This document shows positions 8,666-62,920 of a stretch of DNA of 64,000 nt, one piece after another. Below the pieces are notes generated by a model, which saw only the letters and a list, made by a program, of their open reading frames with translations, searched no databases and was not told the DNA's origin. Position numbers and translations under genes: made by a program. Position 1 is the first letter of the stretch; every line of letters begins with the position of its first letter. The DNA is from Marasmius tenuissimus (taxonomy: Eukaryota > Basidiomycota > Agaricomycetes > Agaricales > Marasmiaceae), in NCBI GenBank assembly GCA_029532415.1, contig JAQOTA010000060.1:3534001-3598000 (forward strand). Direction: 5' to 3'.

Positions 8666-9594
8666 CGTTTTCTGAGGCAGGTTGGCGTGCCTTCTCTTTG
8701 TACAGAGCTAAGCCACTTAGCCATCAACTGTCAACAACAGTGTGAAGGGAGACAACACCTCACATGCACGCATGTGTTGTTCTTTTCCGTGCTCCATTCC
8801 AGAAAAGCAACCCTCAATGTTAGACATCTGGAATTCCATGAACAAAACAGGGCTTCCAGCACCTGCAGTTCGGAAATTGTGACGAAAACCGTAAATTGGA
8901 CCTCGTACGGGGTGCTTTCGTAACAAGCTACTGCCTCACAAGAGCAGCGCGAGCATTTCAGATCCACATGCCTTCGATTCAGAAAGAATTGTGGGGCACA
9001 CCCCGAGGCGGCTCCATGGGCGTGCTCACGGGGGTATCAGGGAAGCGCCCTCAGAAAAGCACCCTCAGGGGAGCACACCCCACGGTGACTTCGTGTGCGT
9101 GGTGAGAGTACCAGGAAAGCACCCTCAACCAGGCCATTGATCATCACCCAGCAGCGGTGATCATGACTTGGAGACTTCAGACGCCCGTGGCGTGCCTATT
9201 GATAAGGTTTGCACCCCCATCCGTATTTTTTGTCGAGAGAATGTGAGCCGTCTAATGTTAAGTCGGTATTTCTGCCGACATCTCTGTCGGTATCTCTTTC
9301 ATATCTCTGCCGTCTCCCTCGAAAAATCGCCAAGCCTCTTCTTCGGTCACTCGATCTCCGAATGGGAGCATTCCAACAGGCGTTTCTATGCACTGCTGGC
9401 GCTGTAGCGCCGAGGTCTAACAGACTAGTTGACCACTGATATAATGACAAGTGTATCTGGATACAGTGTACTCGTCGGCATTCGGTATGTCTGGGGGCCA
9501 AGTGACGCTGAACGCACACACCTTCATTCCGCATCAACTACATCCGGGGTCCCAAGTGCCTTCTATACAGACCACGGCCTAATCTGTAGCTGGC

Positions 9595-10004
9595 TCAACA
9601 ACCACAAATCCAGACACGGATGTCCCCGTTTCCACGTATAGCGTCTATGTTACATGACATCCATTTCGGTGCATCCTGAATACCGCCGCTTTCACTTAGA
9701 ATGGATTACAAATGATGAATCCGTTCGAGAGCATCCGCAGCAGTGGATCGAAGTGAGGGGTCGGCGTTCCAACACGAAGCCATGAGTTCCCAAATCGCAT
9801 CGTCCTTTTGATCAGAAGGCTCAGGGCGAGCGGGATGTTGCTGTCTGACGAGCACCGCAAATACAACTCCACCGCCTGTAAGCCCGTGAAAGGGAGTACG
9901 TCCTGCACAGATCTACAACATGAAGGTCAATCGACCACCGTCAGTCAGAGCTATGAACAACTCGTCTCGTAGCAGACACACCCGTAGGCGTACATATCGT
10001 TCCC
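9595..10004 (-). pseudogene. TKL kinase C-terminal stub (K5-type)
   Basis: Only the last exons of a TKL-like kinase survive. They read D-D-A-I-W-E-L-M-A-S-C-W-N-A-D-P-S-L-R-S and end with an altered tail (G-N-G-D-I-R-V-W-I-C-G-C) instead of the family's N-V-E-Y-P-P-L-D-L-G-M-L-T-Q-L, apparently because of an extra base in the final exon. Upstream, homology to the M-Y-A-Y-G-C-V-C-Y-E exon stops at about 10004, where sequence homologous to 53187 begins. The catalytic core is therefore missing. The same tail ends K3 (26043) and matches the K5 region at 49.3 kb. Confidence 0.85.
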
Positions 10005-11990
10005 ATCTCCAGTATGTCTCGACATTTTTCCGTGTCGTCGAAGGAAGTCCGTATCAGTTCAAGTTCTTCACCTGTCTCCGTCAATTCTTCCTTATGATTT
10101 GACTTTGTCAACGTAGAGTCGCTAGACAGGTCTTGGCCTATGCGAGTAGAGGAAGAAGGCAGTGGTGGTTGTCTCGAAGGTAGCGATGGTGCTGAAGCAT
10201 ACAATCAGGACGATCAATTCAAAGCTAAAGAAGAAATAAAACTCACACTTGAGTGCATCACTCCACGCTTTCACTTGCAACACGGCTTTGTTGTAGTCGC
10301 TTTTGTTCAACCCGCTCAGGGCTGTCTTCGACCCGTCCTTATCCTCGAGAGCATCAGGTATGCCACCCATCTACTGGCGCGTAGAAATTATCCACAGAAG
10401 CCGAAGAAGCTTCTTGGCCGAGATACGAAGATTGGAATCTTTTTGGAAACATTGCATGAGAAAATCCTTAACGATCGGCGATGCAGCTTCGGGTTTGGGG
10501 GATAGTCATCCTGGACGATGCGGGATCGGGCTGGTCTTGTGTCTAGGTCGTTGTAGGGAGGTGCACCTGTCAGTAGTTTGATAACCACACAACCGACGCT
10601 CCAGATATCCGAGGCGGTTGTCGCACCAGATTGTTTGATTACCTCTGGAGCCGCTGCGAAGGGGGTTGTGGTCATCACTACGTGTGTTCAGGACGCAGCT
10701 TGAGAGAGTACGTACTCCAGTAGGGACTCCAAACTATTGCATCACTGCCTGCGAAGCCCATTGTAGTGCTGCTTGCGACACCGAAATCCGCGAGTTTGAC
10801 GGTTCCGTCTTTGTTGGTGAAGATATTGGCGCCCTTGATGTCTCGATGGATAACACCCTGGTCGTGAAGATAGACGAGGCCTTTCAGTATCTGAGAGACA
10901 TAGCCAGCAACCAAATTCTCTGGAAACTTCCCAAAACGTTTGAGAACTCCATATAACGAACCATTCTCACAGAACTCGAGAATAGTGCAGAGAAAGTCAC
11001 CAGTCTTGACGAATCCTTTGTACTTGACGATGTTTGGATGCTACATGATGATCCTTTGAGGATTTCGCTGGTTCGAAGATCAAAGAACCGTACATTCAGA
11101 TGCTTCAGTACGTCAAATTCGGACTGTACAGTGTTCCGATCAGCAAAAATTCCACCAAACGAATGGTGATGACCACGTACTATAATGTCTCTCAAATCTC
11201 CCGTTGGAAAGCCGCTCAGCTGGATCTTCTTGACAGCTACAATCTCCCTAGTGGCCCAGTTCAGAGCATCTGCCCAACAGCTTCGATATGACTGATTCTT
11301 CCGGACTAGAAATCCTGCGATGCTCACGATAGACTTGTCCAAATGCACCCTTCCCCACCAAATCACCCAATTGTTGATGTGCACTAATCCGTGAGCTTTG
11401 CCAACAGTATTCCAGCCATGATTATACGCACATAATCGTCAAGAGATTCGGAGTCCGCAGAGCCGCTGGCTTCCGCCATCACTCGGATCGTCGTCTCGAC
11501 GGTCATGAATACAGCAGTGGCTTCGTAGTCGCTGTAAATAAGAGAAGGGAGTTATAGCGGTTCTTCCGTGTACTGTGAGGCGAATTATGGGTCGGAATAG
11601 ATGGAACAAGAGGTTACCGTATGGACTAAAGTAGAGAGCGTGTGCTGAACGTACGATCTCGCCAGACAGACATAGAAGTCCGACATAACGATCCTCATTC
11701 TTGCTACCGTTGATGGCAGTGTATTTTGAGATCACAGCAATGAGCAGGCCATTCAGTCACAAAATGATATCGAAGCTGCCCGTGAATGAGGTGATTCTAT
11801 GAAACCGTGATTTAGCCCAATTCTGAAAATTTGGAAGAAGGAAATGCTCACGAGAGTTGTCAATGACAAGCTCTCTGAGATCATGAAGGTATGGTCGACT
11901 GTTTGGAGAAGTTCGAGATCGTGAGATCGTGAGACCGTCGTCGTCGTCGTTGTTCAAGACAAGATCAGTGAGCACGCACATCCTCGCGTA
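10005..11990 (-). pseudogene. SepH/Cdc7-like septation kinase pseudogene, copy alpha, with TKL lead-in
   Basis: Exons on the minus strand give a SIN-type Ste11-like kinase: L-G-D-L-V-G-K-G-A-F-G-Q-V-Y-R near 11345, [32 protein letters not shown] near 10835, A-D-F-G-V-A-S, then [17 protein letters not shown] base is lost after Q-D-D-Y-P-P (about 10490), breaking the frame. The tail V-K-A-W-S-D-A-L-K splices to a segment containing T-G-E-E-L-E-L-I-R-T-S-F-D-D-T-E-K-C-R, the lead-in of the TKL kinase family, which is then truncated at 10005. The 5' leader (11600-11680) resembles the leaders of the TKL kinase genes. In yeasts and moulds Cdc7/SepH acts in septation; this copy cannot. Confidence 0.8.
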
Positions 11991-23800: not shown

Positions 23801-26046
23801 ATGTCGCTCTATAAGCCGCCTTCCGAGGAAGCACCCGACGGTTTCCCAACCCAGCAAGGAACAGGAAAACTTGACGCCAGTTTGAAGACCGGCGTCAATC
23901 CTACATCAAGGAAGTCAGAGCAAAAGGAAGAATCGAAAAAGACAGGGGGCGTGAAGGATGGGGACTCGGGAGAGAAAACCGCCGCACAAGGAGCCAACGG
24001 AACAACCAGCTGTTGTGAAGGATGAGACGAAGGCGGCCAACATGAAATCCAGTGACGTTTCACAAGAAGCAGAAACCTCTCCTGAAGTGAAGGAGGGCCA
24101 CGGCCTAGAGGCTAGCAAACAAGGTACTATCACAACCCTCTCCTTCAGCCTCTGTTGTTTGACCTCTCACGTATCCAGAAAGCAAGACCTTGGGCCCACC
24201 CAGCTTTCAAGATTATCGTACCCCCAACGAAGTTGAGGCTGAGGCAGATGTGATTCAAGGCGAGGAGTCGCAAGACACAAAGTCAATGGGGCAGGGGGAA
24301 GGGATGGGAGTAGATGAAGAACGACCGGATACAAGCCTTCTTCGAAGACGCAGAGAAATGTCGCAAGATAATCGAAACAGAGCCCAGAGGGTGATGAAGC
24401 GCAGCGGTGGCTGGATTTGCTGCGAGCGGTGAGGGTGATCATGAAAATCCACATCATATGCGTACTGAGTCTCTTTCTAGCTTACGAGCTACCCTGGAAT
24501 TCAATCAAGATCTACCATGTTCAAAGTCATGCTTCGTCTCTCGAAGAAGTCAGGGATATTCCCGAAGTGCTTGAAGATCAACAATGTCAAGAAACTAGGC
24601 TCCCATCCAGTAGCTGGAGGCGGCTTTGGAAACGTTTGGAAGGGGAGAATTGCAGACGAGATCGTGTGTTTGAAGGTAGTGGAGGTATACCCAGCGTTCG
24701 ATGTTCAGCAACTGCTTAAGGTGTGCCCGTTCTCGAACCGAACTTGAACGCTGTGCTCGTACTCATACTGAGTCCCCTCGTAGCTCACGGATTACCCCGG
24801 GATTCCCAGGCAGTCAAGATACACTATATTCAAAATCATGTTGCGCCTCTCAAATCACTCGGGGATGTTCCCAAGGTGCCTGAAGATTAACAACGTGGAG
24901 AGACTGGGCTTATATCCAGTGGCCGGAGGTGGTTTCGGAGACGTTTAGAAGGGGAAAATAGTGGCCGAGATCGTTTGTCTGAAGGTCGTGAAGGTTTATC
25001 TGGCATCTGATGTCCAGCAGCTCCTCAATGTGCGTTTGTTCTGGAACATCATACTCGCTCTCGTGCTTATCGAAAAGTAGGAGTTCATGCGAGAAGTGGT
25101 TGTATGGCAACAACTCAGACACCCGTGATGACTTCGTGTTGGAATTCCGATCCTTGCCTTTGATCGACTGCTGCGGATATTCTCGAACGAATCCGTGGTT
25201 TGTCGTCAATTCAAGGTGGAATGCCGGATGCCCCCGATTGGAACGCTTTTGGTATAGACGCGATACGGAGCAATGTGGAATATCCACCTTTGGATTTGGG
25301 GATGTTGACACAGCTATAGGCATAGCCCTCCTCTATAGACAGGGCTGGCAATTCTCTCTAGCTTGCACCCCAGAGTGGTTCTTAAACGGTGCGCATACTT
25401 GGTTCTTCTTGCTGTATTGGAGGGGGGGAAAGCATGAAAAACTGGAAGCTGATCGATATTGGTCTTTTGAACAGCTGAACGTCCTCATCATCCCCGAGCT
25501 CAGAGCAGGCATAGGCAACTTTGGTCTATCTCATGTGGCTGACTCGCACGCGGTGAAGTTATCGACTTCGTTCACGAGCCGCGCAAAAGGAACGACCCGA
25601 TGGCATGCTCCGGAGCTTTCTAGCGCTTCTACTGAGAAGAGCGATATGTACGCCTACGGGCGTGTCTGCTACGAGGCGAGTTGCTCATAGTTCTGACTGA
25701 CGGTGGTCGATTGACCTTCATGCTGTAGATCTGTGCAGGACGTACTCCCTTTCACGGGCTTACAGGCGGTGGAGTTGTATTTGCGGTGCTCGTCAGACAG
25801 CAACATCCCGCTCGCCCTGAGCCTTCTGATCAAAAGGACGATGCGATTTGGGAACTCATGGCTTCGTGTTGGAACGCCGACCCCTCACTTCGATCCACTG
25901 CTGCGGATGCTCTCGAACGGATTCATCATTTGTCATCCATTCTAAGTGAAAGCGGCGGTATTCAGGATGCACCGAAATGGATGTCATGTAACATAGACGC
26001 TATACGTGGAAACGGGGACATCCGTGTCTGGATTTGTGGTTGTTGA
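23801..26046 (+). pseudogene. Mosaic TKL kinase pseudogene K3 (three joined pieces)
   Basis: Piece 1 (23640-24760) is a K1/K8-type 5' half: ATG at 23801 with M-S-L-Y-K-P-P-S-E-E-A-P, frameshifts near 23950 and 24315 and about 7 extra bases near 24390, then V-A-G-G-G-F-G-N-V-W-K-G. Piece 2 (about 24772-25440) is K7-type: a second glycine loop with TAG in D-V-W-K (G-D-V-stop-K-G), then a jump from W-Q-Q-L-R-H-P straight to M-T-S-C-W-N, which deletes the catalytic core, followed by K7-type 3' flank. Piece 3 (25441 on) is K5-type: I-G-N-F-G-L-S (DFG Asp now Asn), W-H-A-P-E-L, ending in the altered tail at 26046. No piece can encode an active kinase. Confidence 0.85.
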
Positions 26047-26917
26047 GCCAGCTACAGATTAGGCCGTGGTCTGTATAGAAGGCACTTGGGACCCCGGATG
26101 TAGTTGATGCGGAATGAAGGTGTGTGCGTTCAGCGTCACTTGGCCCCCAGACATACCGAATGCCGACGAGTACACTGTATCCAGATACACTTGTCATTAT
26201 GTCAGTGGTCAACTAGTCTGTTAGACCTCGGCGCTACAGCGCCAGCAGTGCATAGAAACGCCTGTTGGAATGCTCCCATTCGGAGATCGAGTGACAGAGA
26301 TGTCGGCAGAAATACCGACTTAACATTAGACGGCTCACATTCTCTCGACAAAAAATACGGATGGGGGTGCAAACCTTATCAATAGGCACGCCACGGGCGT
26401 CTGAAGTCTCCAAGTCATGATCACCGCTGCTGGGTAATGATCAATGGCCTGGTTGAGGGTGCTTTCCTGGTACTCTCACCACGCACACGAAGTCACCTTG
26501 GGGTGTGCTCCCCTGAGGGTGCTTTTCTGAGGGCGCTTCCCTGATACCCCCGTGAGCACGCCCATGGAGCCGCCTCGGGGTGTGCCCCACAATTCTTTCT
26601 GAATCGAAGGCATGTGGATCTGAAATGCTCGCGCTGCTCTTGTGAGGCAGTAGCTTGCTACGAAAGCACCCCGAACGAAGTCCAATTTACGGTTTTTGTC
26701 ACAATTTCCGAACTGCAGGTGCTGGAAGCCCTGTTTTGTTCATGGAATTCCAGATGTCTAACGTTGAGGGTTGCTTTTCTGGAACGGAGCACGGAAAAGA
26801 TCAACACATGTGTGCATGTGAGGTGTTGTCTCCCTTCACACACTGTTGTTGACAGTTGATGGCTAAGTGGCTTAGCTCTGTACAAAGAGAAGGCACGCCA
26901 ACCTGCCTCAGAAAACG

Positions 26918-48419: not shown

Positions 48420-49290
48420 CGTTTTCTGAGGCAGGTTGGCGTGCCTTCTCTTTGTACAGAGCTAAGCCACTTAGCCATCAACTGTCAACAACAGTGTGTG
48501 AAGGGAGACAACACCTCACATGCACACATGTGTTGATCTTTTCCGTGCTCCGTTCCAGAAAAGCAACCCTCAACGTTAGACATCTGGAATTCCATGAACA
48601 AAACAGGGCTTCCAGCACCTGCAGTTCGGAAATTGTGACAAAAACCGTAAATTGGACTTCGTTCGGGGTGCTTTCGTAGCAAGCTACTGCCTCACAAGAG
48701 CAGCGCGAGCATTTCAGATCCACATGCCTTCGATTCAGAAAGAATTGTGGGGCACACCCCGAGGCGGCTCCATGGGCGTGCTCACGGGGGTATCAGGGAA
48801 GCGCCCTCAGAAAAGCACCCTCAGGGGAGCACACCCCAAGGTGACTTCGTGTGCGTGGTGAGAGTACCAGGAAAGCACCCTCAACCAGGCCATTGATCAT
48901 TACCCAGCAGCGGTGATCATGACTTGGAGACTTCAGACGCCCGTGGCGTGCCTATTGATAAGGTTTGCACCCCCATCCGTATTTTTTGTCGAGAGAATGT
49001 GAGCCGTCTAATGTTAAGTCGGTATTTCTGCCGACATCTCTGTCACTCGATCTCCGAATGGGAGCATTCCAACAGGCGTTTCTATGCACTGCTGGCGCTG
49101 TAGCGCCGAGGTCTAACAGACTAGTTGACCACTGACATAATGACAAGTGTATCTGGATACAGTGTACTCGTCGGCATTCGGTATGTCTGGGGGCCAAGTG
49201 ACGCTGAACGCACACACCTTCATTCCGCATCAACTACATCCGGGGTCCCAAGTGCCTTCTATACAGACCACGGCCTAATCTGTAGCTGGC

Positions 49291-51183
49291 TCAACAACCA
49301 CAAATCCAGACACGGATGTCCCCGTTTCCACGTATAGCGTCTATGTTACATGACATCCATTTCGGTGCATCCTGAATATCGCCGCTTTCACTTAGAATGG
49401 ATGACAAATGATGAATCTGTTCGAGAGCATCCGCAGCAGTGGGTCGAAGTGAGGGATTGGCGTTCCAACACGAAGCCATGAGTTCCTAAATCGCATCGTC
49501 CTTTTCACAGAACGCCCAGGGCGAGCGGGATGTTGCTGTCTGACGAGCACCGCAAATACAACTCCACCGCCTGTAAGCCTGCACAGATCTACAACACGAA
49601 GGTCAATCGACCACCGTCAATCAGAGCTATGAGCAACTCGCCTCGTAGCAGACACACCCGTAGGCATACATATCGCTCTTCTCAGTGGAAGCGCTAGAAA
49701 GCTCCGGAGCAAGCCATCGGGTCGTTCCTTTGGCGCGGCTCGTGAACGAAGTCGATAACTTCACCGCGCGCGAGTCAGCCACATGAGATAGCCCAAAGTC
49801 GCTTATGCATGCTCTGACCTCGGGGGTGATGAGGACGTTCAGCTGTTCAAAAGACCAATGTCGATCAGCTTCCACAGCTGATTAGTAACAATCAAACCGA
49901 AAGCCTCACGCCCTTCATATCGCCGTGAACGATCTTCATGCCATGAAGATGGGCCAGGCCAGCTGCAACGTCGTACGCCTACAAAAGCATCAGGCATGGT
50001 CGTAAGGGCAAAACGTAGGGATGCGATTACAAGCAGCATACGGTCGACAAGTTCAGGAGGCGTATTCTTGAGAAATGTCATGAGATTCCCCCGTTCGATC
50101 CATGGAGAAACCAAGCACAGCTGTCCTTGACCCTCTCCGAGATAGTACATCCCTACAAATGGCAGGAGGTTCGGGTGTCTGAGTTGTTGCCAGACAATTG
50201 CTTCCTGCATGTATTCCTGGCTTTTGATAAGCACGAGAGCAATATTCACATTCTAGAACAAACACACCTTAAGCAGCTGCTGGACGTCCGATGCTAGGTA
50301 GACCTTCACAACTTTCAAACACACGATCTCGGTCGCGATTTTCCCCTTCCAAACATCTCCGAAACCGCCTCCGGCCACTGGATACGAACCCATCTTCTCC
50401 ACGTTATTGATCTTCAAGCACTTCGGATACATCCCCGACTTCTTCGAGAGGCGCAGCATAACTTTAAATATAGTGGACTTTGATTTCCTTGGAACTGCCG
50501 GGTGATCTGCGAGCTACGAAGGGAGTTTAATCTTCGGTACGCGCGTAGAAGTAGATGACACCCCTCACCGCTTGCAATAGATCTAACCACCTCTGGGCTT
50601 CGTCACCCTCCGTCTCCAATACCCGTCGACATTTTTGGGCATCTTTGAAGAAAGCCTGTATCCGTTCGAGTTCTTCATCCGTTACGATCCGCTCTCTAGT
50701 CTCGACTCCATAGAGGGTACGGTGGTCTTGAGAGCTGTTTGGGCCCAACCCCCTACCCCCATCTGCGTCGTTTGGTGCCAGTGGTCGTAGTTGTGGACTT
50801 GGCAACACACTCAAAGTATCTGCAAATGCGGGGAACGACGGATTCTCGAATCCCCCTTGGTAGGTTTGATCTTCTGAACTCTTCATCAACAATGGCAGCG
50901 TCGGGCGTGGGGTTGTCGATTCGTTTCCAAGAGGCGCCGAATCGTGCAATGAGGTCATCGCTGACGTTCTCCCAATGAGAGAACTTGACCCGAGCGTATC
51001 GAAGAGCATGCTGAAGCTCTGCTCAGAAGGGTTGTGTTCACTGAAGCTCTGTTCAAAGGGGTTGTGTTCCAAGTGATAGTCAGTACGTCGATAGCGATTC
51101 CGAAGGGGCTGTCGTTCTTCCGATATCGAATGCTTGTGTGAGCGAGATGGAGAAGTGATTGGGCCGTTTCTTGTAGGAGGCAT
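49291..51183 (-). pseudogene. TKL kinase K5, nearly intact but C-lobe broken
   Basis: The start at 51183 gives a Ser/Pro-rich N-terminus (M-P-P-T-R-N-G-P-I-T-S-P-S-R), then the lead-in E-E-L-E-R-I-Q-A-F-F-K-D-A-Q-K-C-R, V-A-G-G-G-F-G-D-V-W-K-G, V-C-L-K-V-V-K, H-G-D-M-K-G and S-D-F-G-L-S, so all catalytic motifs are present. The last exon has lost 19 bases after I-C-A-G (about 49580) relative to K3/copy 1, and D-A-I-W-E-L has become D-A-I-stop-E-L (near 49490). The C-lobe helices are thus missing or scrambled. It could still yield a truncated product. The preceding intron has a GC donor (GAG|GCGAGT). The N-terminal region differs from all other members. Confidence 0.8.
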
Positions 51184-51810
51184 GCTGTTTCCCCCAGCGC
51201 AATGCGGTAGCTGACTTCGTTAGCAGTATGTGGTGGAGGAGAAGTAGAAGAAGAGGAGGAGAGGAGCAGTGTACCGCATAGCAGGGTCTGGGGAAAGCTA
51301 TTGACAATCTGTCACGCACGCCCTCGCCACAGCTCGCCATCAGTGGAGTCATGCTGACTCGTCCCTCTGCCTGAATGGGGCGTGACCATACATTGGCCAT
51401 TGCGACCTGTCGCGCTGCGCTTTGACGCCCCAGACTCCGGTATTGTGCTTGTTGCACCCCCGCTTGGGTGGCTGTATAATTTCGAGTAGGAAAATGAGAA
51501 CCGTTAGAAGATATCGGTTCGTCTCTCCCTTCAAGTTACCCGATCTCCGGTTCCTCAATCTTCGAGTATGGGCTCGGAGATGCATGTAGTGGGTAGAAGA
51601 ATTCTATTCATAGATGTTGGGTGTCCCTGTTCACCGGCACCGATTGTGTTGCGGCATTGTCCGAGTCTAAATTCGTTGAACAGCGATGTAACGACACATG
51701 TACCTGAATACTGTGTATACTGTATGGCCACTAGTCAACATTCAGAACCCCTGAGGATTAATCGCTGTACACACGCACCTTTATTCCATCTACTCCATCT
51801 GAATCTACAG

Positions 51811-53373
51811 CTATAGCTGCGTCAACATCCCCAGATCCAAGGGCGGATACTCCACATTCCTCCGTATCGCCTCTACGTCTAAAGTCTTCCAATCCTGTCC
51901 ATCCTGAATAACGCCACTGCCAGTTTCACCCCGACTCGATGACATTGACATATGACGAATCCGTTCGAGAGCATCCGCAGCAGTAGGTCGAAGGGAGCGA
52001 TCATGGTTCCAGCACGAAGTCATGAACCCCAGATGGCATCGTCGTCTAGTCCTTCGGGGCGAGGGGAATGCTGCTGTCTGAGGAGAACCGCAAAGATGAC
52101 GGCACCGTCTGTTAGGTCGTGGAAGGGTACACGATCTGCGAGGATCTTCGAGGTTAACATGAATGATGACCGTCAGCCAGAGCCTCGTTGGGGTAAGCAC
52201 GAACGACTTACCTCGTAGCAGACACATCCATATGCATACATATCGCTCTGCTCAGTAGAAACGGTAGAAAGCTCCGGGTTGAGTAGCTCAGGTGCAAGCC
52301 ATCGAGTCGTTCCCTTTCCGCGACTTGTAGAGGACGTCGACAAATTCACCGCATGCGAGTAGGCAACATGAGACAGAGCAAAGTCGCCTATGCATGCTCT
52401 GAACTCGGGGGTGATGAGGACATTCACCTATTTAAGGAAATCAATCAGTTGTTATAGCCAGTTCGTAGAGGTCAACATGAAACCTTACGCCTTTCATATC
52501 GCCGTGCACGATCTTCATGCCATGAAGATGAACCAGACCAGATGCAACGTCATACGCCTACAAGGGGATTAGACGTAAACGTATCGAGGTAAAGGAGAAG
52601 AACAGATACCAGCTGCATGCGATCAACGCGTTCAGGAGGAGCATTCTTCAGGAAAGTGACGAGGTTGCCCTGCTCCATCCACGGCGAAACCAAACATAGC
52701 TGTCCTTGACTTTCCCCGAGGTAGTACATCCCTACGAACGGCAGAAGATTCGGATGTCTGAGTTGTTGCCAGACAATCGCCTCTCGCATGTATTCCTAAG
52801 CTCTGATAAGTACGAGTGCAATAGTCAGGTTCGAGAACAAACGTACCTTGAGTCACAGTGGCACACCGGACACCAGGTAAACTTTCACCACTTCGAGAGC
52901 CACGATCTCGTCCGCCATCTTCCCTTCCAAAAGTCTCCGAAGCCGCCCCCGGCCACTGGATGAGAGCCCAGTCTCTCCACGTTATTGATTCTCAAGCAAT
53001 TCGGATATATTCCCGATTTCTTCGAGAGGCACAACATGTCTTTGAATACGGTCGACCTTGGCTGCCTCGGAATATCAGGGTGTTCCGTGAGCTACGAAGG
53101 GACTCAGTACGCATAGAATGTAAAACTAGACGACGACCCTCACCGTTTGCAGCAGATCTAACCACCTCTGGGTTTCATCACCCTCTGTCTCCAGTACGTT
53201 TCGACATTTTTCCGTGTCGTCGAAGAAAGTCCGTACCAGTTCGAGTTCTTCTCCTGTCTCCGTCGATTCTTCCTTATACTTTGACTTTATCAACGTAGAG
53301 TCGCTAGATAGGTCTTGGCCTATGCGAGTGGTGTAAGAAGGCCGTAGTGGTTGTTTCGAAGGTGGCGATGATG
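51811..53373 (-). pseudogene. TKL kinase K6, 3' half of a SepH-kinase fusion
   Basis: It ends D-L-G-M-L-T-Q-L at 51811. Lead-in E-E-L-E-L-V-R-T-F-F-D-D-T-E-K-C-R, catalytic loop H-G-D-M-K-G, but the DFG reads D-F-A. One base is lost in the glycine-loop exon (D-F-W-K-G-R-W instead of D-V-W-K-G-R-I-A), and a TGA sits where paralogues read Q-L-L-K. Its 5' exon (ending 53373) is joined by a clean GTGAGT...GCTTCAG intron (53374-53428) to the SepH-like segment upstream, in the phase expected for one fused protein. No ATG of its own is needed or evident, supporting descent from a chimera that then decayed. Confidence 0.75.
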
Positions 53374-53428
53374 CTGAAGCATATAATCGGGACAACCAAT
53401 ATGAAGCTGAAGAAGAAGCAAAACTCAC

Positions 53429-54820
53429 ACTTGAGTGCATTACTCTACGCTTTCACTTGCAACACAGCTTTGTCATAGTCGCTTTTGTTCAACCCACTCA
53501 GGGTTGTCTTCGACCCGTCCTTATCCTCGAGGGCATCAGGTATGCCACCCATCTGCTAGCGCGTAGGAAATATCCACGAATGCCGAAGAAGCTTCTTGGC
53601 CGAGATACGAAGATTGGAAATTTTTTTGGAGACATTGCATCGGGAACTCCTTGACGATCGGCGATGCGCCTTCGGGTATTGGCGGATAGTCATCCTGGAC
53701 GATGCGGGATCGGGCTGATATTGTGTCTAGGTCGTTGTGGGGAGGTGCACCTGTCAGTAGTTCGATAACCACACAACTGACGCTCCAGATATCCGAGGCG
53801 GTTGTCGCGCCGGATTGTTTGATCACCTCTGGAGCCGCTGCGAAGGAGGTTGTGGTCGTCAATACGTATGTTCAGGGCGCAGCTTGAGAGAGTACGTACT
53901 CCAGTAGGGACTCCCAACTATTGCATCACTGCCTACGAAGCCCATTGTAGTGCTGCTTGCGACACCGAAATCCGCGAGTTTGACGGTTCCATCTTTGTTG
54001 GTGAGGATATTGGCACCCTTGATGTCTCGATGGATAACACCTTGGTCGTGAAGATGGTCGAGGCCTTCCAGAATTTGAGAAGTGTATACGGCGACCATTT
54101 TCGCAGAACTAAATAATGATGTAGAGAAATTCCTTGGTCTTGACAAATCCCTTGTACTTGACAATGTTCGGATGCCATACGATGGTCATCTGAGGGTTTC
54201 GTAGGTTATAAAGATCAAGTGGTCGCACATTCAGATGCTTCAGCACGTCAATTTCGGACTGTACATATGGTGTTCCAGTCAACAAAAATGCCACTAAGCG
54301 AATGAAGATGACCACGCACCATAATGCAGGGATTTGGAAGACTATTTAACTGAATCTTCTTGACATCTACGGTCTCCCCAGTGGCCCAGTTCAAACCTCT
54401 GCCCAAGATCGTCGCCTTGATGGTTGTGAGCACAGCAGTGGCTTGGTAGTCGCTATGTCAAAAGAGAGTGACGGCGGTTCTTCGTGTAGGGCTATTGACA
54501 ATTCTGTATGAAATAAGAGGTTACTGGATAGACTGAAGTAGAGGGCGTGTGCTGAACGTACGATCCCACTAGATAGATATAGAAGTCTGACAAAACTATC
54601 CCCATCCTTGTTGCAAGTGTTTTAGGTCACAGCAATGAGCAGGCCATTCATTTACAAAATGATGTTGAAGCTGCCCAAAATGAACGATATGATTCTATGG
54701 CATCGTGATTTAGCTTAAAATTCGAGATTTCGGAAAAATAAGACGCTCACGGGAGATGGTATGGTCGACTGTTTGGGGAATTTCGAGATGGTGAGATGGT
54801 GGTGATTGTTGTTCAAACTT
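53429..54820 (-). pseudogene. SepH/Cdc7-like kinase pseudogene, copy beta, 5' part of the fusion
   Basis: It contains [53 protein letters not shown], and [12 protein letters not shown]. About 70 bases are missing between L-Y-I-I-I and F-C-E-N-G, which introduces a stop. The Trp of V-K-A-W-S-D is TAG, and the glycine-loop exon is missing. The leader near 54500-54600 resembles the TKL kinase leaders. The homologous copy alpha at 10-12 kb keeps different parts intact, so the two decayed independently. Confidence 0.8.
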
Positions 54821-56473: not shown

Positions 56474-59400
56474 CTATAGCTGTGTCAACATCCCAAAATC
56501 CAAAGGTGGATATTCCACATTGCTCCGTATCGCGTCTATAGCAAAAGCCTTCCAATCGGGGGCGACCGGGATTCCGCCTTGAATTGACGACAAACCACGG
56601 ATTCGTTCGAGAATATCCGCGGCAGTGGGTCGAAGGGAAGGATCGGAACTCCAACACGAAGTCATCAACTCCCAGATAACATCATTATCCAACACTCCAG
56701 GGCGGGATGGATATTGCTGTCTGACGAGAACTGCAACGACGACTGCACCATCCGTTAGCCCGTGGAAAGGAGGGTGACCTGCGAAGATCTACATACAATA
56801 TGAAAGATCATGATTTGTGAGTGATTGAACTTTGCCGAGTGGTACACGGCCGATTTACCTCATAGCAGACACAACCGTAGGCGTACATGTCGCTCTGGTC
56901 GGTGGAGATATTAGAAAGCTGCGGGTCTAGCAACTCTGGTGCAAGCCACCGGGTCGTTCCCTTGGCGCGACTGGCGAAAGACGTTGAGATTCTCAGCGCA
57001 TGCGAGTCAGCCACATGAGATAAGCCAAAGTCGCCTATGCATGCTCTGAGCTCGGGGGTGATGAGGACGTTGACCTGTTTGAGAGATCGATCAACTTCGA
57101 CATTCAGTAGTTTAGATCAAGCGCCTTACGCCTTTCATATCGCCGTGAACGATTTTCATGCCATGAAGATGAGCGAGACCAGACGCAATATCGGACACCT
57201 ACATTCCCATGAGTTATGGATGCAGAGAGAACATAGAAAACTGATTACCAGTAGCATGCGATCAATCATTTCAGGAGGTGCGTTCTTGAGAAAGGCGACG
57301 AGGTTTCCCTGCTCCATCCACGGCGAAACCAAACATAATTGTCCTTGGCCCTCCCCGAAATAGTACATGCCCACGAACGGCAAAATATTTGGGTGTTTGA
57401 GTTGTTGCCATACAATCGCTTCTTGCATGAACTCCTACTTTCCGATCAGCACGAGCGAGATTTATGTTCTGGAACAAGCGCACATTGAGGAGCTGCTGGA
57501 CATCAGATGCCAGATAAACCTTCACGACTTTGAGGCAAACAATCTCGGCCGCTATTTTTCCCTTCCAAACGTCTCCGAAACCACCTCCGGCCACTGGATA
57601 TAACCCCAGTTTCTCCACGTTGTTAATCTTCAAGCACCTTGGGAACATCCCCGATTTCTTCGAGAGGCGCAACATGATCTTGAATATAGTGGATCTTGAC
57701 TGTCTGGGAATCCCGGGGTAATCCGTGAGCTACAAAGGGACTCAGTGGGTATGGTATGTGAAAGTAGACGCCAATCCTCACCGTTTGCAGGAAATCCAAC
57801 CACCGCTGGGCTTCATCACCCTCTGCGTCGATTATCTTGCGACATTTCTCTGCGTCTTCGAAGAAGGCCTGTATCCGCTCAAGTTCCTCGTCCGTTTGTT
57901 TTCCCGCCGGTCCAGCAACCTCTGCGGGTACAAAATCCTTGCCTTGGGTCGCTTCTCGCTGTTTGAAAGCATCGGCAGATGTTGGAGTCAGCATCCGGAC
58001 TGCGTCTTGCGCCGCTAAATCTTCTTCGTAAGGAGGGGAAGGAACGGGACTCAGTGCCATGGGAGGTGCCATGTGGGGTGAGTGCTCTTGGGCAGGGCCG
58101 GGAGTGGAGAACATTTGCATGTAAAGTTCACCCGTGTATGGCCAGAGACCGGCTGCACGAGAGTCAGAGCGAGACGTGACACAACTGAAGCTCATGCTCA
58201 CACACTGAAGGAGGATCTGCAAAGCTCGAAGTCCCAAAAGGATTGAAATCATCCTTCAAGACGTTAACAGGGGGATTTTCCTCAACTGATCGCGAGCTGA
58301 AGAATGAGTTGGGAGTGGCGGGATTCTGACACAACATTAACCAAGCGCTGGAAGGATTCGAGAGTAGAGCGCTCACGACCTCCCAGGCTTTGGGCGGAAC
58401 CGAAGCCGACGCGAGAGTTTGAATGGAGGTGCTGGAGGATGCTATACCCTGAGGAAACGTTTTCAGTATCGCCCAAAAATTGAGTGGACGTCAATCTTAC
58501 AGGAGCGGCAGGTTGTTGAGCCTTACTAACTCCCTTGAATGGCGGAATAGCTTGAATGAACATCGCTGGCTTGTAGGGCTTGGAAGTCTCAGTCTTCAAA
58601 GGAGTAATGGCGAGCCTGGAACTAGTGCTGGGCAAGTCGGCACTGGGTTTGCGAGCAGCTTCAACAAACTTTGCACCGGTAAGTTAAAGTTCCCGACTGG
58701 CCGCTTACTGTGTCGCACTAGCAGAAACAAGTAGTCGCGCTGGTGAGGAATTGGCGTCCTTCACGGACTTGTCCCGGATCTGTTGCCGTCTGTCCTCATC
58801 CTTGGCCAATATTCTCACCAAATCAAGTTCTGGGATCGGCTTATTGAACTGTGTAATGCAAACCGGAAGTCAGATTGTGTCGAGTCAAGATCATATCTCT
58901 TACGAGCCTTAAAACTTTGGCTAAACTTGACCAGGTCTTCTTTCCTCCTGTCCAGATCACTCTGGTCTGGAGCTAAAGCTAGTCTCTTTTGTGTGAGCCG
59001 CACCTTCTCCTTGATGAGCCAATCGTGAAAGGCAGGTACAGAAACGTTGAGCGGCTGTATCACGTCCCGAATGTAAACCGTGGTTCTTCACATTCACCAC
59101 AAACAAAGGCTACATACCTTCGAGACCAGCGCAGGAGAGGTGCTTACCGAAGCAGCTGCTGAACCTGGTGCCCGTGATATGACGGCAGCCCCATCAAGGC
59201 CATAGGCGGCTTGAGCTTTGGGCACATCAACTGGTTTCGCGGAAGCTGTCAGATCGCCAGTACCAACCGTCTTCCGACCATCTGCTTCAAGCTCTCGTTC
59301 TGTCTCACCAAGCTTGCAGGAAATGTCAGTGTCGGTTCGGAAGGCTGTCCGAGAAGATGATCAACATTCAGTGAGCGCGACGCCAATGTATTGATACCAG

Positions 59401-59982
59401 CTTACAGTCGCCATCGGTGAGTACGGCATCAGCGGGGCCAGATTGCCAAGTATCGATGTTGGTCGATGCGATAAAGTGTTGAAGCTTGAGAGGGCCAGCC
59501 GGGTTGGTGAGTTCCTTGACATCTTTGAGTGTGACCCCAGTCGTGTCGCCTTGGTTTCTCGTGGACATGATAATGCCTTCATAACGTTGACCGGTTTTTG
59601 TTGAAAGTGTGATCATTGCACCCTGTCAGAAAGGAAAAAAGTCTTAACCAAACGTAAATCTCATATTTGTTCGAGAACGCACTGTCAGCCCTGAGATCGC
59701 CTGGATCACGCGATCAACACCTCTCTCTGGGCGGTTGCCGCTCGCTGGACCAAGGGGAAACGAGAAGCTTCTCGGGTTTGGGCTTGGATTGAGATTGGGA
59801 GTCGACCTGGAACTGTTTCCTAATGAAAAGGCGGGGGAATGTCCCGCACCGGGTACTATACGCCTTGAGATGAAAAGTTCACTGATATCAAACTCGATTC
59901 AGACGAAGATTGGTACGACTTACTGGGCAGAGTTTGTTGCACCTGTGGGTTGCTTTTTAGATTTCCGGTTTGCTTTGGCCAT
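56474..59982 (-). CDS. Ataxin-2/Pbp1 - TKL kinase fusion gene (K7)
   Basis: ATG 59982 opens M-A-K-A-N-R-K-S-K-K. Further exons give the ataxin-2 Sm-like domain (M-I-T-L-S-T-K-T-G-Q-R-Y-E-G, D-T-T-G-V-T-L-K-D-V), then S-F-R-T-D-T-D-I-S, the LsmAD-like part (D-W-L-I-K-E-K-V-R-L-T-Q-K-R), and the Pbp1 C-terminal marks L-K-D-D-F-N-P-F and W-P-Y-T-G-E-L-Y-M-Q-M-F. The intron 58156-58212 (GTGAGC...GTGCAG) keeps phase, and the frame runs on through Q-S-P-H-M-like Pro-rich sequence into the kinase lead-in E-E-L-E-R-I-Q-A-F-F-E-D-A-E-K-C-R and a full kinase domain: V-A-G-G-G-F-G-D-V-W-K-G, V-C-L-K-V-V-K, H-G-D-M-K-G, G-D-F-G-L-S, tail G-M-L-T-Q-L at 56474. No stop or shift was found. Ataxin-2/Pbp1 binds RNA and poly(A)-binding protein in stress granules; a kinase tail is not usual. 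Two adjacent genes remain possible. Confidence 0.75.
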
Positions 59983-60504
59983 TCAGAACAGGCAAAACCC
60001 GCAGGATAGCAGGATATCGAGGGAACGGATGGAAAACAAGAAAGAGGGAATTCAGACACCGTTGAGACAGCGAGCAACTTGGTCGCAGATGAAGAAGCTT
60101 GATAATGAAGAAAACAGCGACGCTTATATGCAACAAGAAGCAGACGCTAATAAGCGAGCTGGACGTAGTCGACGACGAGTCGAGGTTACGCAGAGTGACG
60201 GCGACTGGGCGGACACTGGAACAATCACAAAACATGAGGCAAGTCACTTCATTGAAGTTCAAGCTGATCAGACATCATCAAGTCTCCCACGGTTGACAAC
60301 ACCTTCCGTGACTGTGGGTGCCTGACATCTTCTCTCATCATTGACCTCCATGAGATTCGGCAGTGGCTCTGGCTCTCGAAGGTAAGCATGCCATCTCGGG
60401 CCACTATTTAAGACGATTCTCAGGGCTCGCGCGACCCGTCCTACATCTTCTGACCTTCATCGCCATCCCTCGCGGACCCTGACAATATCAAGAGCCGTGG
60501 TCTC

Positions 60505-62920
60505 CTGAGTAGAAGGGAGCCCGGAGGTGAATGCCGTTATGGGATAAAAGCAAATCGTGACGCGTATTGGCATGCCTGACCCAACAAAGTCGACGAGTAT
60601 GCCACCTCGTAGCCTATTCACTGGAATTCCAAGTTACAACGAAGTCCAGATTCGTTGAATAAGTTAAATAACGATTTAAGGACAAGTCTGAATACAATGC
60701 AAGCTGTATGGACACCCGTCAGCATTCGGTACACATAGGGATCCACCATCGAACACACGTACCTTTGCTTCGTCTATCACACCCAACCTCGCAAGGAGCT
60801 TCTCAACTACAGCTCGCTCAACATCCCCAAATCCAAGCGTGGATATTCCACATTGCTCCTTATCGCGTCCACATTGAAACCCTTCCAGCCCGGCGCATCC
60901 TGAATATCACCACTTCCACCCCGAATCGACCACAAACGTCGAATTTGTGCAATTGAATCCGCGGCGGTAGGTCGAAGGGAAGCCTCAGAGTTCCAACACG
61001 AAGTCATCAACTCCCAGATCCCATCATCAACCTCTGGGTCTTCGGGACGAGAGGGATGTTTGCCATCAAGAAGAACCGCGACGATGACCGCACCTTCCCC
61101 TAGTTCGTAGAAGGGAGCACGTTCCGCGAAGATCTGATGAATCATGGATGCAAGTCAGAACTCGTTAACAGTATATTTGAACACGAATGACTAGCCTCGT
61201 AACAGACACATCCGTAAGCGTACATGTCGCTCTGCAGGGTGGAAACGCTAGGAGGGGCCGATCTAAGGAGCTCTGGTGCAAGCCATCGGGTCGTTCCCTT
61301 AGCACGACTGGTAAAGGACGTCGATAACTTCAAGGCATGCGAGTCAGCGACGTGCGATAGACCGAAATCGCCTATGGATGCCCTTCCCTCGGGGGTGATT
61401 AGGACGTTGAGCTGTTTGAGGAACGGGTTAGCTTCAACAGTCAGCTGTTAGCAGTCAAATGGAAACCTCACGCCTTTCATATTACCGTGAACGATTTTCA
61501 TGCCATGGAGATGAGCCAGGCCGGATGCAACGTCGTACGCCTACAAGGGCATCAGACACCAAGACAACGATAGAACGCAGGCAAGTGCTCACCAATAGCA
61601 TACGATCAACGTGTTCAGGGGCCGTGGTCTTGAGAAAAGTAACGAGATTCCCCCGTTCCATCCACGGCGAAACTAAACATAGTTGTCCTTGGCCCTCTCC
61701 GAAGTAGTACATGCCTATGAACGGCAGAAGGTTTGGGTGTCTGAGTTGTTGCCAAACAATCGCCTCCTGCATGTACTCCTAAGCTCCAATGAGTACGAGT
61801 ACGAAGGTTCAATCCGAGAGCAGACTCACCCTGAGCAACTGCTCGACATCAGACGCCAGGTATACCTTCACGACCTTCAAACACACGATCTCGTCTGCTA
61901 TTCTCCCCTTCCAAACGTCTCCGAAGCCGCCTCCAGCTACTGGATGTGATCCCATCCTCTCTACGTTGTTGATCTTCAGACACTTCGGGTACAATCCTGA
62001 CTTCTTCGAGAGGCGAAGCATGACTTTGAACATGGTAGATCTTGATTGAATACCAGGATAACCCGTAAGCTAGGAAGAGACTCAGGACGCATATGATATG
62101 AAAGGAGACGCCGACCCTCACCGCTTGCAGGAAATCCAACCACCGCTGGGCTTCATCGCCCTCTGTCTTGATAATCTTTCGACATTTCTCTGCGTCTTCG
62201 AAGAAGGCCTGTATCCGGCCAAGTTCTCCACCCGTTCCCGTCCCTTCCCCCTGGCCCGTCGACTTCGTATCCTCGCCTTGAATAACTTCTGCGACAGCTT
62301 CAACTTCATTGGAGGTAGGGCGATCTTGAGAGCTGCTTGAGCGCGAGGTCTTACTCTCTGAATATGTGGGGGATCAGACAACTGAGCCTAAAGAAGACGG
62401 TTATGACGATACCTTGTTTGCTAGCCTCGAGGTCGTGGTCCTTCTTCGCCTTCAGCGCAGGCTCCCTTTCGAAAGTTTTTGCGTCTTTAGATGTCATAGC
62501 CTGCCTTTTCGTTGAGTCTTGGCCTGGGGCCTTCGTCTTCATAACAGCTGGTTCCTTGTGCGGCGGTTTTCTCTCCTTGTCCTTCCCGTCCTCTGTCTCT
62601 TTCGACTTCCATTTCGGCTTTGTTGATGTGGGATTGCTATGTGTCTTCGAACTGGTGTCAAGTTTCCCTGGCCCTTGTTGCGTTGGGGAAACCTCGGGCC
62701 CTTCCTTGTTAGGCGACTTGTACGTTGACATAGGCAATCCTAGACGAAAAAAGAGGTTACTGGATCTGCAGTAGAATGAGTGTGTGCTGAACGCACGATA
62801 TTAATGCTCCGTCAGACAGATATAGAAGTCTGACAGAAAGCGATCTACGTCCGTTGTCACTATCGATGTTGATCAATGTATTGTGAAGCTGGGAAGGACG
62901 GGCCGACCGCTGAACATTGA
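60505..62920. repeat. Inverted duplication arm B (K8 gene), partner of 12240-14690
   Basis: Reverse complement of arm A over the whole kinase gene, the leader and the first ~300 bp of 3' flank. Confidence 0.85.
60807..62731 (-). CDS. TKL-like kinase K8, predicted pseudokinase
   Basis: ATG 62731 gives M-S-T-Y-K-S-P-N-K-E-G-P, nearly the same as K1. Lys/Glu-rich N-terminus, lead-in G-E-L-G-R-I-Q-A-F-F-E-D-A-E-K-C-R, glycine loop V-A-G-G-G-F-G-D-V-W-K-G, lysine in V-C-L-K-V-V-K, D-F-G-L-S, L-A-P-E-L, tail G-M-L-S-E-L at 60807. The catalytic loop reads H-G-N-M-K-G (GAT to AAT near 61488), so the catalytic Asp is lost while the rest of the frame is kept. Seven exons with the same splice sites as K1; intron 6 again has a GC donor (GAG|GCTAGT). 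Either a pseudokinase with a scaffold or decoy role, or a very early pseudogene. Confidence 0.88.

Follow-up and report, generated by a model that had tools for sequence, protein, structure and literature searches.

The window analysed here is a 64,000-nucleotide stretch of the genome of Marasmius tenuissimus (contig C3:3534001-3598000; assembly of 71.06 Mb in 70 contigs), a fungus named among the causes of thread blight in cacao (PMC8581569, PMC11053350). On the minus strand of the window, at 56474..59982, lies a chimeric gene whose spliced model has 15 exons and a predicted product of 903 aa, with a frame-keeping path that runs from a Pbp1-like ATG at 59982 to the stop of a TKL kinase at 56474. 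This path agrees with the in-frame Pbp1-to-TKL fusion proposed in a first-pass annotation of this DNA, and the further proposal that the normal Pbp1 tail had been replaced also holds, the kinase taking the place of the tail. The public M. tenuissimus protein P0001 is identical to the spliced model over all 903 residues, an identity that reflects agreement with a public gene model and is no evidence of expression. Its source name is 'Rho guanine nucleotide exchange factor [Marasmius tenuissimus]'; at E-values up to 1e-5, no Pfam model other than kinase models matches P0001, so this name is unsupported. The structure model of the chimera is too poor for use (mean pLDDT 49.5).

The Pbp1-derived part of the gene comprises exons 1-9 and extends into the beginning of exon 10, and the join to the kinase sits within this single exon. 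The last PBP1-homologous DNA is a 39-bp blastn block of 90% identity inside exon 10 (57958..57996, minus strand); it is followed on the same strand by a linker (57896..57957), which resembles the linkers of the nearest kinase relatives P0006, P0011, P0013 and P0028, and by the TKL module (56474..57895), a lead-in and a full kinase domain with PK_Tyr_Ser-Thr and Pkinase matches. Homology to PBP1 thus ends at 57958, and the DNA common to other kinases of the window begins at about 57896. The junction intron of the first-pass annotation is placed at 58201-58153 by the frame-keeping model rather than at 58156-58212.

An intact PBP1 is found on another contig of the same genome (C27:1353.7-1356.9 kb), so that a search for a second, unfused Pbp1, recommended at the outset as a check, returned one. 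This paralog (locus L002, C27:1350000-1359500) encodes, by its gene model, an intact Pbp1 of 832 aa with an LsmAD domain (93.7 bits in P0024, the public version of this protein) and the PAM2 motif LNVNASSFRP, matched with a pattern that we take to describe the Pab1-binding motif. The chimera aligns with PBP1 in three blastn blocks of 944, 789 and 510 columns (81, 75 and 76% identity), which places their likeness, as judged from the DNA, far beyond chance. The 81% block (L002 3492-4422) reaches into an upstream flank at 59983..60213 (minus strand), a putative copy of the PBP1 promoter and 5' UTR. Identity to PBP1 is 80.6% in exons and 75.1% in introns, so exons have been kept only slightly better than introns; it is 75.4% upstream, where the stretch measured extends beyond the homologous part. 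A retrocopy was considered and rejected, because the introns were co-duplicated together with about 230 bp of sequence ahead of the ATG; to judge from the alignments, the Pbp1 part arose by duplication of the 5' portion of PBP1 at the DNA level. What has been retained from Pbp1 is the 5' flank, the exon order, the Sm-like domain, a helical middle block and the DDFNPF and WPYTG blocks. The Sm-like (Lsm) exon (59406..59622, minus strand) has 217 nt, the same length as in the paralog, and is 84% identical to the paralog's exon in a protein search. Its SM-ATX score is 21.9 bits in the chimera and 27.4 in intact P0024, against a cut-off of 29.8; an SM-ATX family search of the genome returned the C27 copy alone, below the cut-off, and the protein search gave both copies.

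The 903-aa frame depends on two splice sites, both in minus-strand introns. The first is the GC donor (GCTCGT) of a 59-nt intron at 58849..58907, for which the paralog has GT; retention of this intron would stop the protein after 307 aa, and by inspection the frame would also be preserved by another GT donor, GTCAAG at 58931. The second belongs to a putative new intron of 66 nt (58643..58708) in what is plain exon in the paralog, the two stretches being identical at 52 of 66 positions. This stretch holds two in-frame TAA codons and must therefore be spliced out for the 903-aa frame; if retained, the protein stops after 324 aa. It begins with GT in the chimera and GC in the paralog, and this single base difference (GC to GT) gives rise to the GT donor of the intron and to the first of the two TAA codons. 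The earlier statement that no stop separates the two halves consequently stands only under the splicing model, in which the two TAA codons are skipped.

Three in-frame blocks of the paralog are absent from the chimera. A 459-nt deletion (point at 59284..59285, minus strand, by alignment with the paralog) has removed LsmAD, which is not listed for P0001 in Pfam at E-values up to 0.01; the LsmAD-like region noted in the first-pass annotation is thus absent as a domain. A 159-nt deletion (58505..58506, minus strand, by the same alignment) has removed PAM2, the pattern being matched in the intact protein and not in the chimera. The third block, of 54 nt, lies before the join, and the Pro-rich Pbp1 tail is lacking as well. 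Exonic indels relative to the paralog are multiples of three in 11 of 11 cases, compared with 7 of 12 in the introns and upstream flank (one-sided hypergeometric 0.024; the counts omit two gaps at the alignment ends). The residues MLTPTSADAFKQ just before the join match DNA of the 3' part of a probable PBP1 intron of 54 nt, which starts with GT and ends with AAACAG; residues matching this stretch are absent in P0078, P0096 and P0102 and present in P0059. In the public Pbp1 models P0024 (M. tenuissimus) and P0059 (M. crinis-equi) this 18-residue intron has seemingly been kept as coding, and the Pbp1 rows of M. oreades, Moniliophthora and Paramarasmius are without these 18 residues.

Selection has acted differently along the gene. 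Between the chimera and the paralog, dN is 0.185 and dS 0.45 over 491 codons (ratio 0.41, bootstrap 0.32-0.53), with pairwise ratios of 0.12 for the Sm-like exon and 0.79 for exon 7. Among 294 columns invariant in four outgroups, the fused copy alone has changed at 77, the paralog alone at 2 and both at 5. Since nearly all amino-acid change falls on the chimera, its own dN/dS would be about twice the pairwise value, or roughly 0.8 for the whole and 0.25 for the Sm-like exon. Neutral runs were matched to half of the synonymous change, and as few amino-acid changes as the 12 observed in the Sm-like exon arose in 1 of 60 of them (mean 33.4); runs at or below the observed number were 12/60 for exon 10, 40/60 for exons 1-2 and 25/25 for exons 4-9. 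The kinase half has a dN/dS of 0.10-0.19 against four paralogs of the window, in pairs that include pre-fusion ancestry, and one of these four (at 50 kb) has one stop within the aligned part. The Sm-like exon and the kinase therefore look constrained, and the constraint on the former may predate the fusion; loss of constraint in the rest of the Pbp1 part is well supported.

The kinase domain itself is complete. The PK_Tyr_Ser-Thr match in P0001 spans positions 8-257 of 258, and the catalytic set, all of which had been called present, could be located: the Gly loop (608-617), Lys627, Glu647, Asp724, Asn729, Asp742 and APE (772-774). Several of these residues are invariant columns of the kinase family alignment, and HRD reads HGD (Arg to Gly), as in the family consensus. 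The best solved relatives by sequence are one EGFR entry, followed by CTR1, a Src-Abl ancestor and many B-Raf chains; of these, CTR1 and B-Raf belong to the TKL group. The chimera's kinase belongs to a tandem TKL array in the window, in which four other full kinase modules share DNA with the chimera only from about 57896-57886 onward. Neighbouring TKL modules with different N-termini lie on the minus strand at 60807..62226 (shared DNA and a protein match to P0010) and at 49280..50683 (shared DNA). At a further TKL locus (24313-26057), the pieces 24767-25124 and 25126-25444 are about 91% identical to 57746-57391 and 56667-56351 of the chimera, possibly as a recent internal copy or by conversion.

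In a quick maximum-likelihood tree of 108 kinase modules (32 N-type, with the kinase C-terminal, 71 C-type and 5 other), the neighbour of P0001 is P0006 of Marasmius sp. AFHP31 (83% identity over 378 columns). Together with P0011, P0013 and P0028 of M. tenuissimus they form a 5-row set (SH-aLRT 95), nested in a 26-row set (SH-aLRT 100) of which 25 rows are N-type and one is other. The N-terminal parts of these near relatives differ. That of P0006 matches two parts of an open frame of 1579 residues on C19 of M. tenuissimus, at 70% and 85% identity, so that the fragment of the C19 gene is itself in an AFHP31 protein; P0011 has NPHP3_N and NACHT matches with the kinase C-terminal, and a precomputed list gives similar matches for P0013 and P0028. 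An origin of the linker in the partner gene of P0006 was rejected: the C19 stretch read contains none, and P0011, P0013 and P0028 have a similar one, for which reasons we assign the linker to the kinase. Flank clustering distinguishes at least 11 N-flank families in the 26-row set, a low count because the clustering lumps SepH-like, TKL and NACHT flanks together. The N-flank of P0101, a TKL protein of Tetrapyrgos nigripes, clusters with that of P0006, perhaps through independent or shared capture or a Pro-rich match.

Two further captures are seen in the window, both on the minus strand and both from a parent gene on C28, which we take to be a SepH/Cdc7-like kinase gene. One is followed by a TKL module (51805..54477, fragment 54477-53349) and lacks 208 bp of the parent including its ATG; the other is followed by a TKL remnant (9584..11560, fragment 11560-10174). 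Both break at nearly one point of the parent (L044 2249 and 2256) and contain sequence from as far as 81 bp ahead of its ATG. Because the full SepH-TKL copy in the window is without the parent's start, not every capture remains whole. Two AFHP31 proteins, P0004 and P0005 (source name 'Protein kinase of the Mitotic Exit Network'), are likewise SepH-like and TKL chimeras, and their occurrence alongside those of the window suggests that such chimeras can survive a species split. For all three partners sought (Pbp1, SepH-like and the C19 gene), a parent gene was found in this genome.

Elsewhere in the family, Pfam matches beside the TKL kinase in ten proteins picked for their partners include PAH, RhoGAP with PH and PX, Fungal_trans, WW, RasGEF, YTH, Homeodomain, GATA, eIF_4G1 and La. 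The 109 listed kinases add at least further PH-type, RhoGEF, CNH, NACHT, VHS, DUF6699, WD40 and PB1 matches among the best 25 of 91 Pfam families. Many members carry their partners on the C-terminal side, and RNA-related ones there, namely YTH (P0060, P0065, P0071, P0072, P0076 and P0107), eIF4G1 (P0069) and La (P0088), all on Marasmius TKL kinases, echo the Pbp1 case at the opposite end. The number of N-flank families, together with the NACHT-type and other fragments on near relatives, identifies the Pbp1-TKL gene, at the level of sequence, as one case of repeated partner capture in its kinase family.

Residues 1-500 of P0001 match 244 proteins, in a search that scored the 7988 candidates sharing most words at 0.55-1.75 times the query length. 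Among the 120 of these listed, 119 carry LsmAD and none of the 119 a kinase domain, P0001 alone (counted by eye) having a kinase and no LsmAD. Within the same 120, the Pbp1-to-TKL architecture has no second example, and the recommended search for LsmAD-plus-kinase proteins found none. A search with full-length P0001 gave 11 Pbp1 proteins and 109 kinases in the best 120 of 388, and blastp of the two halves returned no second protein with both Pbp1 and a kinase. Among the matches listed, Pbp1-TKL is so far in one assembly.

Ataxin-2 has been described with extra domains in about 5% of lower species, including animal chimeras with RIO2, CAMKK-like and MAPKAPK5 kinase domains and an Aspergillus felis protein with an SCYL1-like pseudokinase (PMC12898128). 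The available portion of that paper names no TKL kinase among ataxin-2 chimeras, and 'Marasmius' does not occur in its main text. The present gene resembles those chimeras in adding a kinase domain to ataxin-2/Pbp1. Read-through between neighbours is favoured there as their origin (PMC12898128), whereas here a duplicated, truncated copy has been fused with a kinase from a different locus. The chimera also differs from Pbp1/ataxin-2 itself in lacking LsmAD, PAM2 and the Pro-rich tail and in continuing into a kinase.

These observations lead us to propose, with about an even chance of being right, that a 5' duplicate of PBP1 came to lie in frame with a TKL kinase of the array and that the product is a kinase with an Lsm docking or bait end. 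The retention and constraint of the Sm-like exon suggest that this end would be a folded one, lacking both LsmAD and the PAM2 motif that binds Pab1. The PBP1-derived flank would drive transcription, splicing would use the GC donor and the new 66-nt intron, and the resulting 903-aa fusion protein would be brought by its captured Lsm end to Pbp1 partners or RNA, with the kinase as output; alternatively, the Lsm end could display a Pbp1-like surface to an antagonist. The join was perhaps made by repair at the short shared sequence AAACAG (read KQ), which is suggested because P0006, at the protein level, carries KQ at the equivalent position. A search of 57700-60800 for the footprint of a transposon showed no repeat at both fragment ends (57958 and 60213). 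The interval contains a single direct repeat, of 14 nt, and four inverted pairs, all imperfect; one of these pairs (57896-57913 and 60022-60039; 18 nt, 83%) has one arm near the join.

The two TAA codons and the lost GT donor could also mark a chimera in decay, that is, a fragment that landed upstream by duplication, was once open and is now drifting, with no 903-aa protein made. This seems possible but somewhat doubtful: it would account for the absence of constraint in exons 1-2 and 4-9 (40/60 and 25/25 neutral runs), for the 77 against 2 one-sided changes in fused copy and paralog and for the occurrence in a single assembly among the listed hits, whereas the uniformly in-frame exonic indels, the constrained Sm-like exon and the open, constrained kinase half speak against it. 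Constraint on the Sm-like exon also weighs against a reading in which the Pbp1 residues have no function and the kinase either is simply driven by the PBP1 flank or starts at a Met within the final Pbp1 exon. We regard this too as a tentative alternative, favoured by the roughly 230 bp of co-duplicated PBP1 flank, by the SepH-like fragments, which likewise carry sequence from as far as 81 bp ahead of their parent's start codon, and by in-frame Met residues (448, 450, 464, 468 and 490) ahead of the lead-in; it leaves the family's many C-terminal partners unexplained.

The first-pass suggestion of a working stress-granule Pbp1 with its own kinase is, in our estimate, very unlikely. The Sm-like domain and the DDFNPF and WPYTG blocks are retained, but LsmAD and PAM2 are lost, for which reason we reject this view, and an intact PBP1 exists elsewhere in the genome. 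Still more improbable is an assembly artefact: tandem arrays are difficult to assemble and annotate, yet the contig is 4.6 Mb long, the join lies within one exon, and an identity of 75-81% to PBP1 DNA means that this is not misplaced PBP1 sequence.

The kinase family can be compared with several known systems. Among the papers listed in literature searches, none was seen to describe fungal TKL kinases that capture partners. An expansion of kinases near tyrosine kinases (FslK) has been described in Agaricomycetes, with a fungal TKL clade set aside (PMC3937382); by description only, the two are alike in being mushroom-specific kinase expansions, and the part of that account available to us does not describe gene-fragment capture. 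Fungal NLRs include NACHT-type proteins combined with Pkinase or PK_Tyr_Ser-Thr (PMC9815663), in which, as far as that source details them, the kinase domain is N-terminal, whereas that of P0011 is C-terminal. Another parallel is the major integration clade of plant NLRs, which has undergone repeated fusion to diverse endogenous genes (PMC5819176). As described there, the plant proteins share with the family studied here a single clade, diverse endogenous partners, homologs of the captured domains elsewhere and a conserved stretch adjoining the fusion site; they differ in that the present proteins carry a fungal kinase module and that recognition of invaders is here at most hypothetical. By this analogy, and in a reading we consider rather unlikely, the Marasmiaceae TKL module would be a counterpart of the plant integrated decoys that takes up, as baits, parts of hub proteins encoded by the fungus itself (Pbp1, SepH-like kinase, YTH, La, eIF4G, PAH, RasGEF and others). 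Its conserved lead-in would serve as the landing site for repeated captures, and Pbp1-TKL would bait attackers of poly(A)-mRNA control.

In summary, foreign partners have been placed one after another on related kinases, while the parent genes that were sought have been retained. Public-record names of such chimeric proteins can mislead. The findings raise the questions of whether the conserved lead-in aids joining or splicing and whether fungi, like plants, turn captured parts of their own proteins into baits. This kinase family likely acquires new functions by taking in parts of other genes, and it offers a natural series for studying the birth of new signalling proteins.
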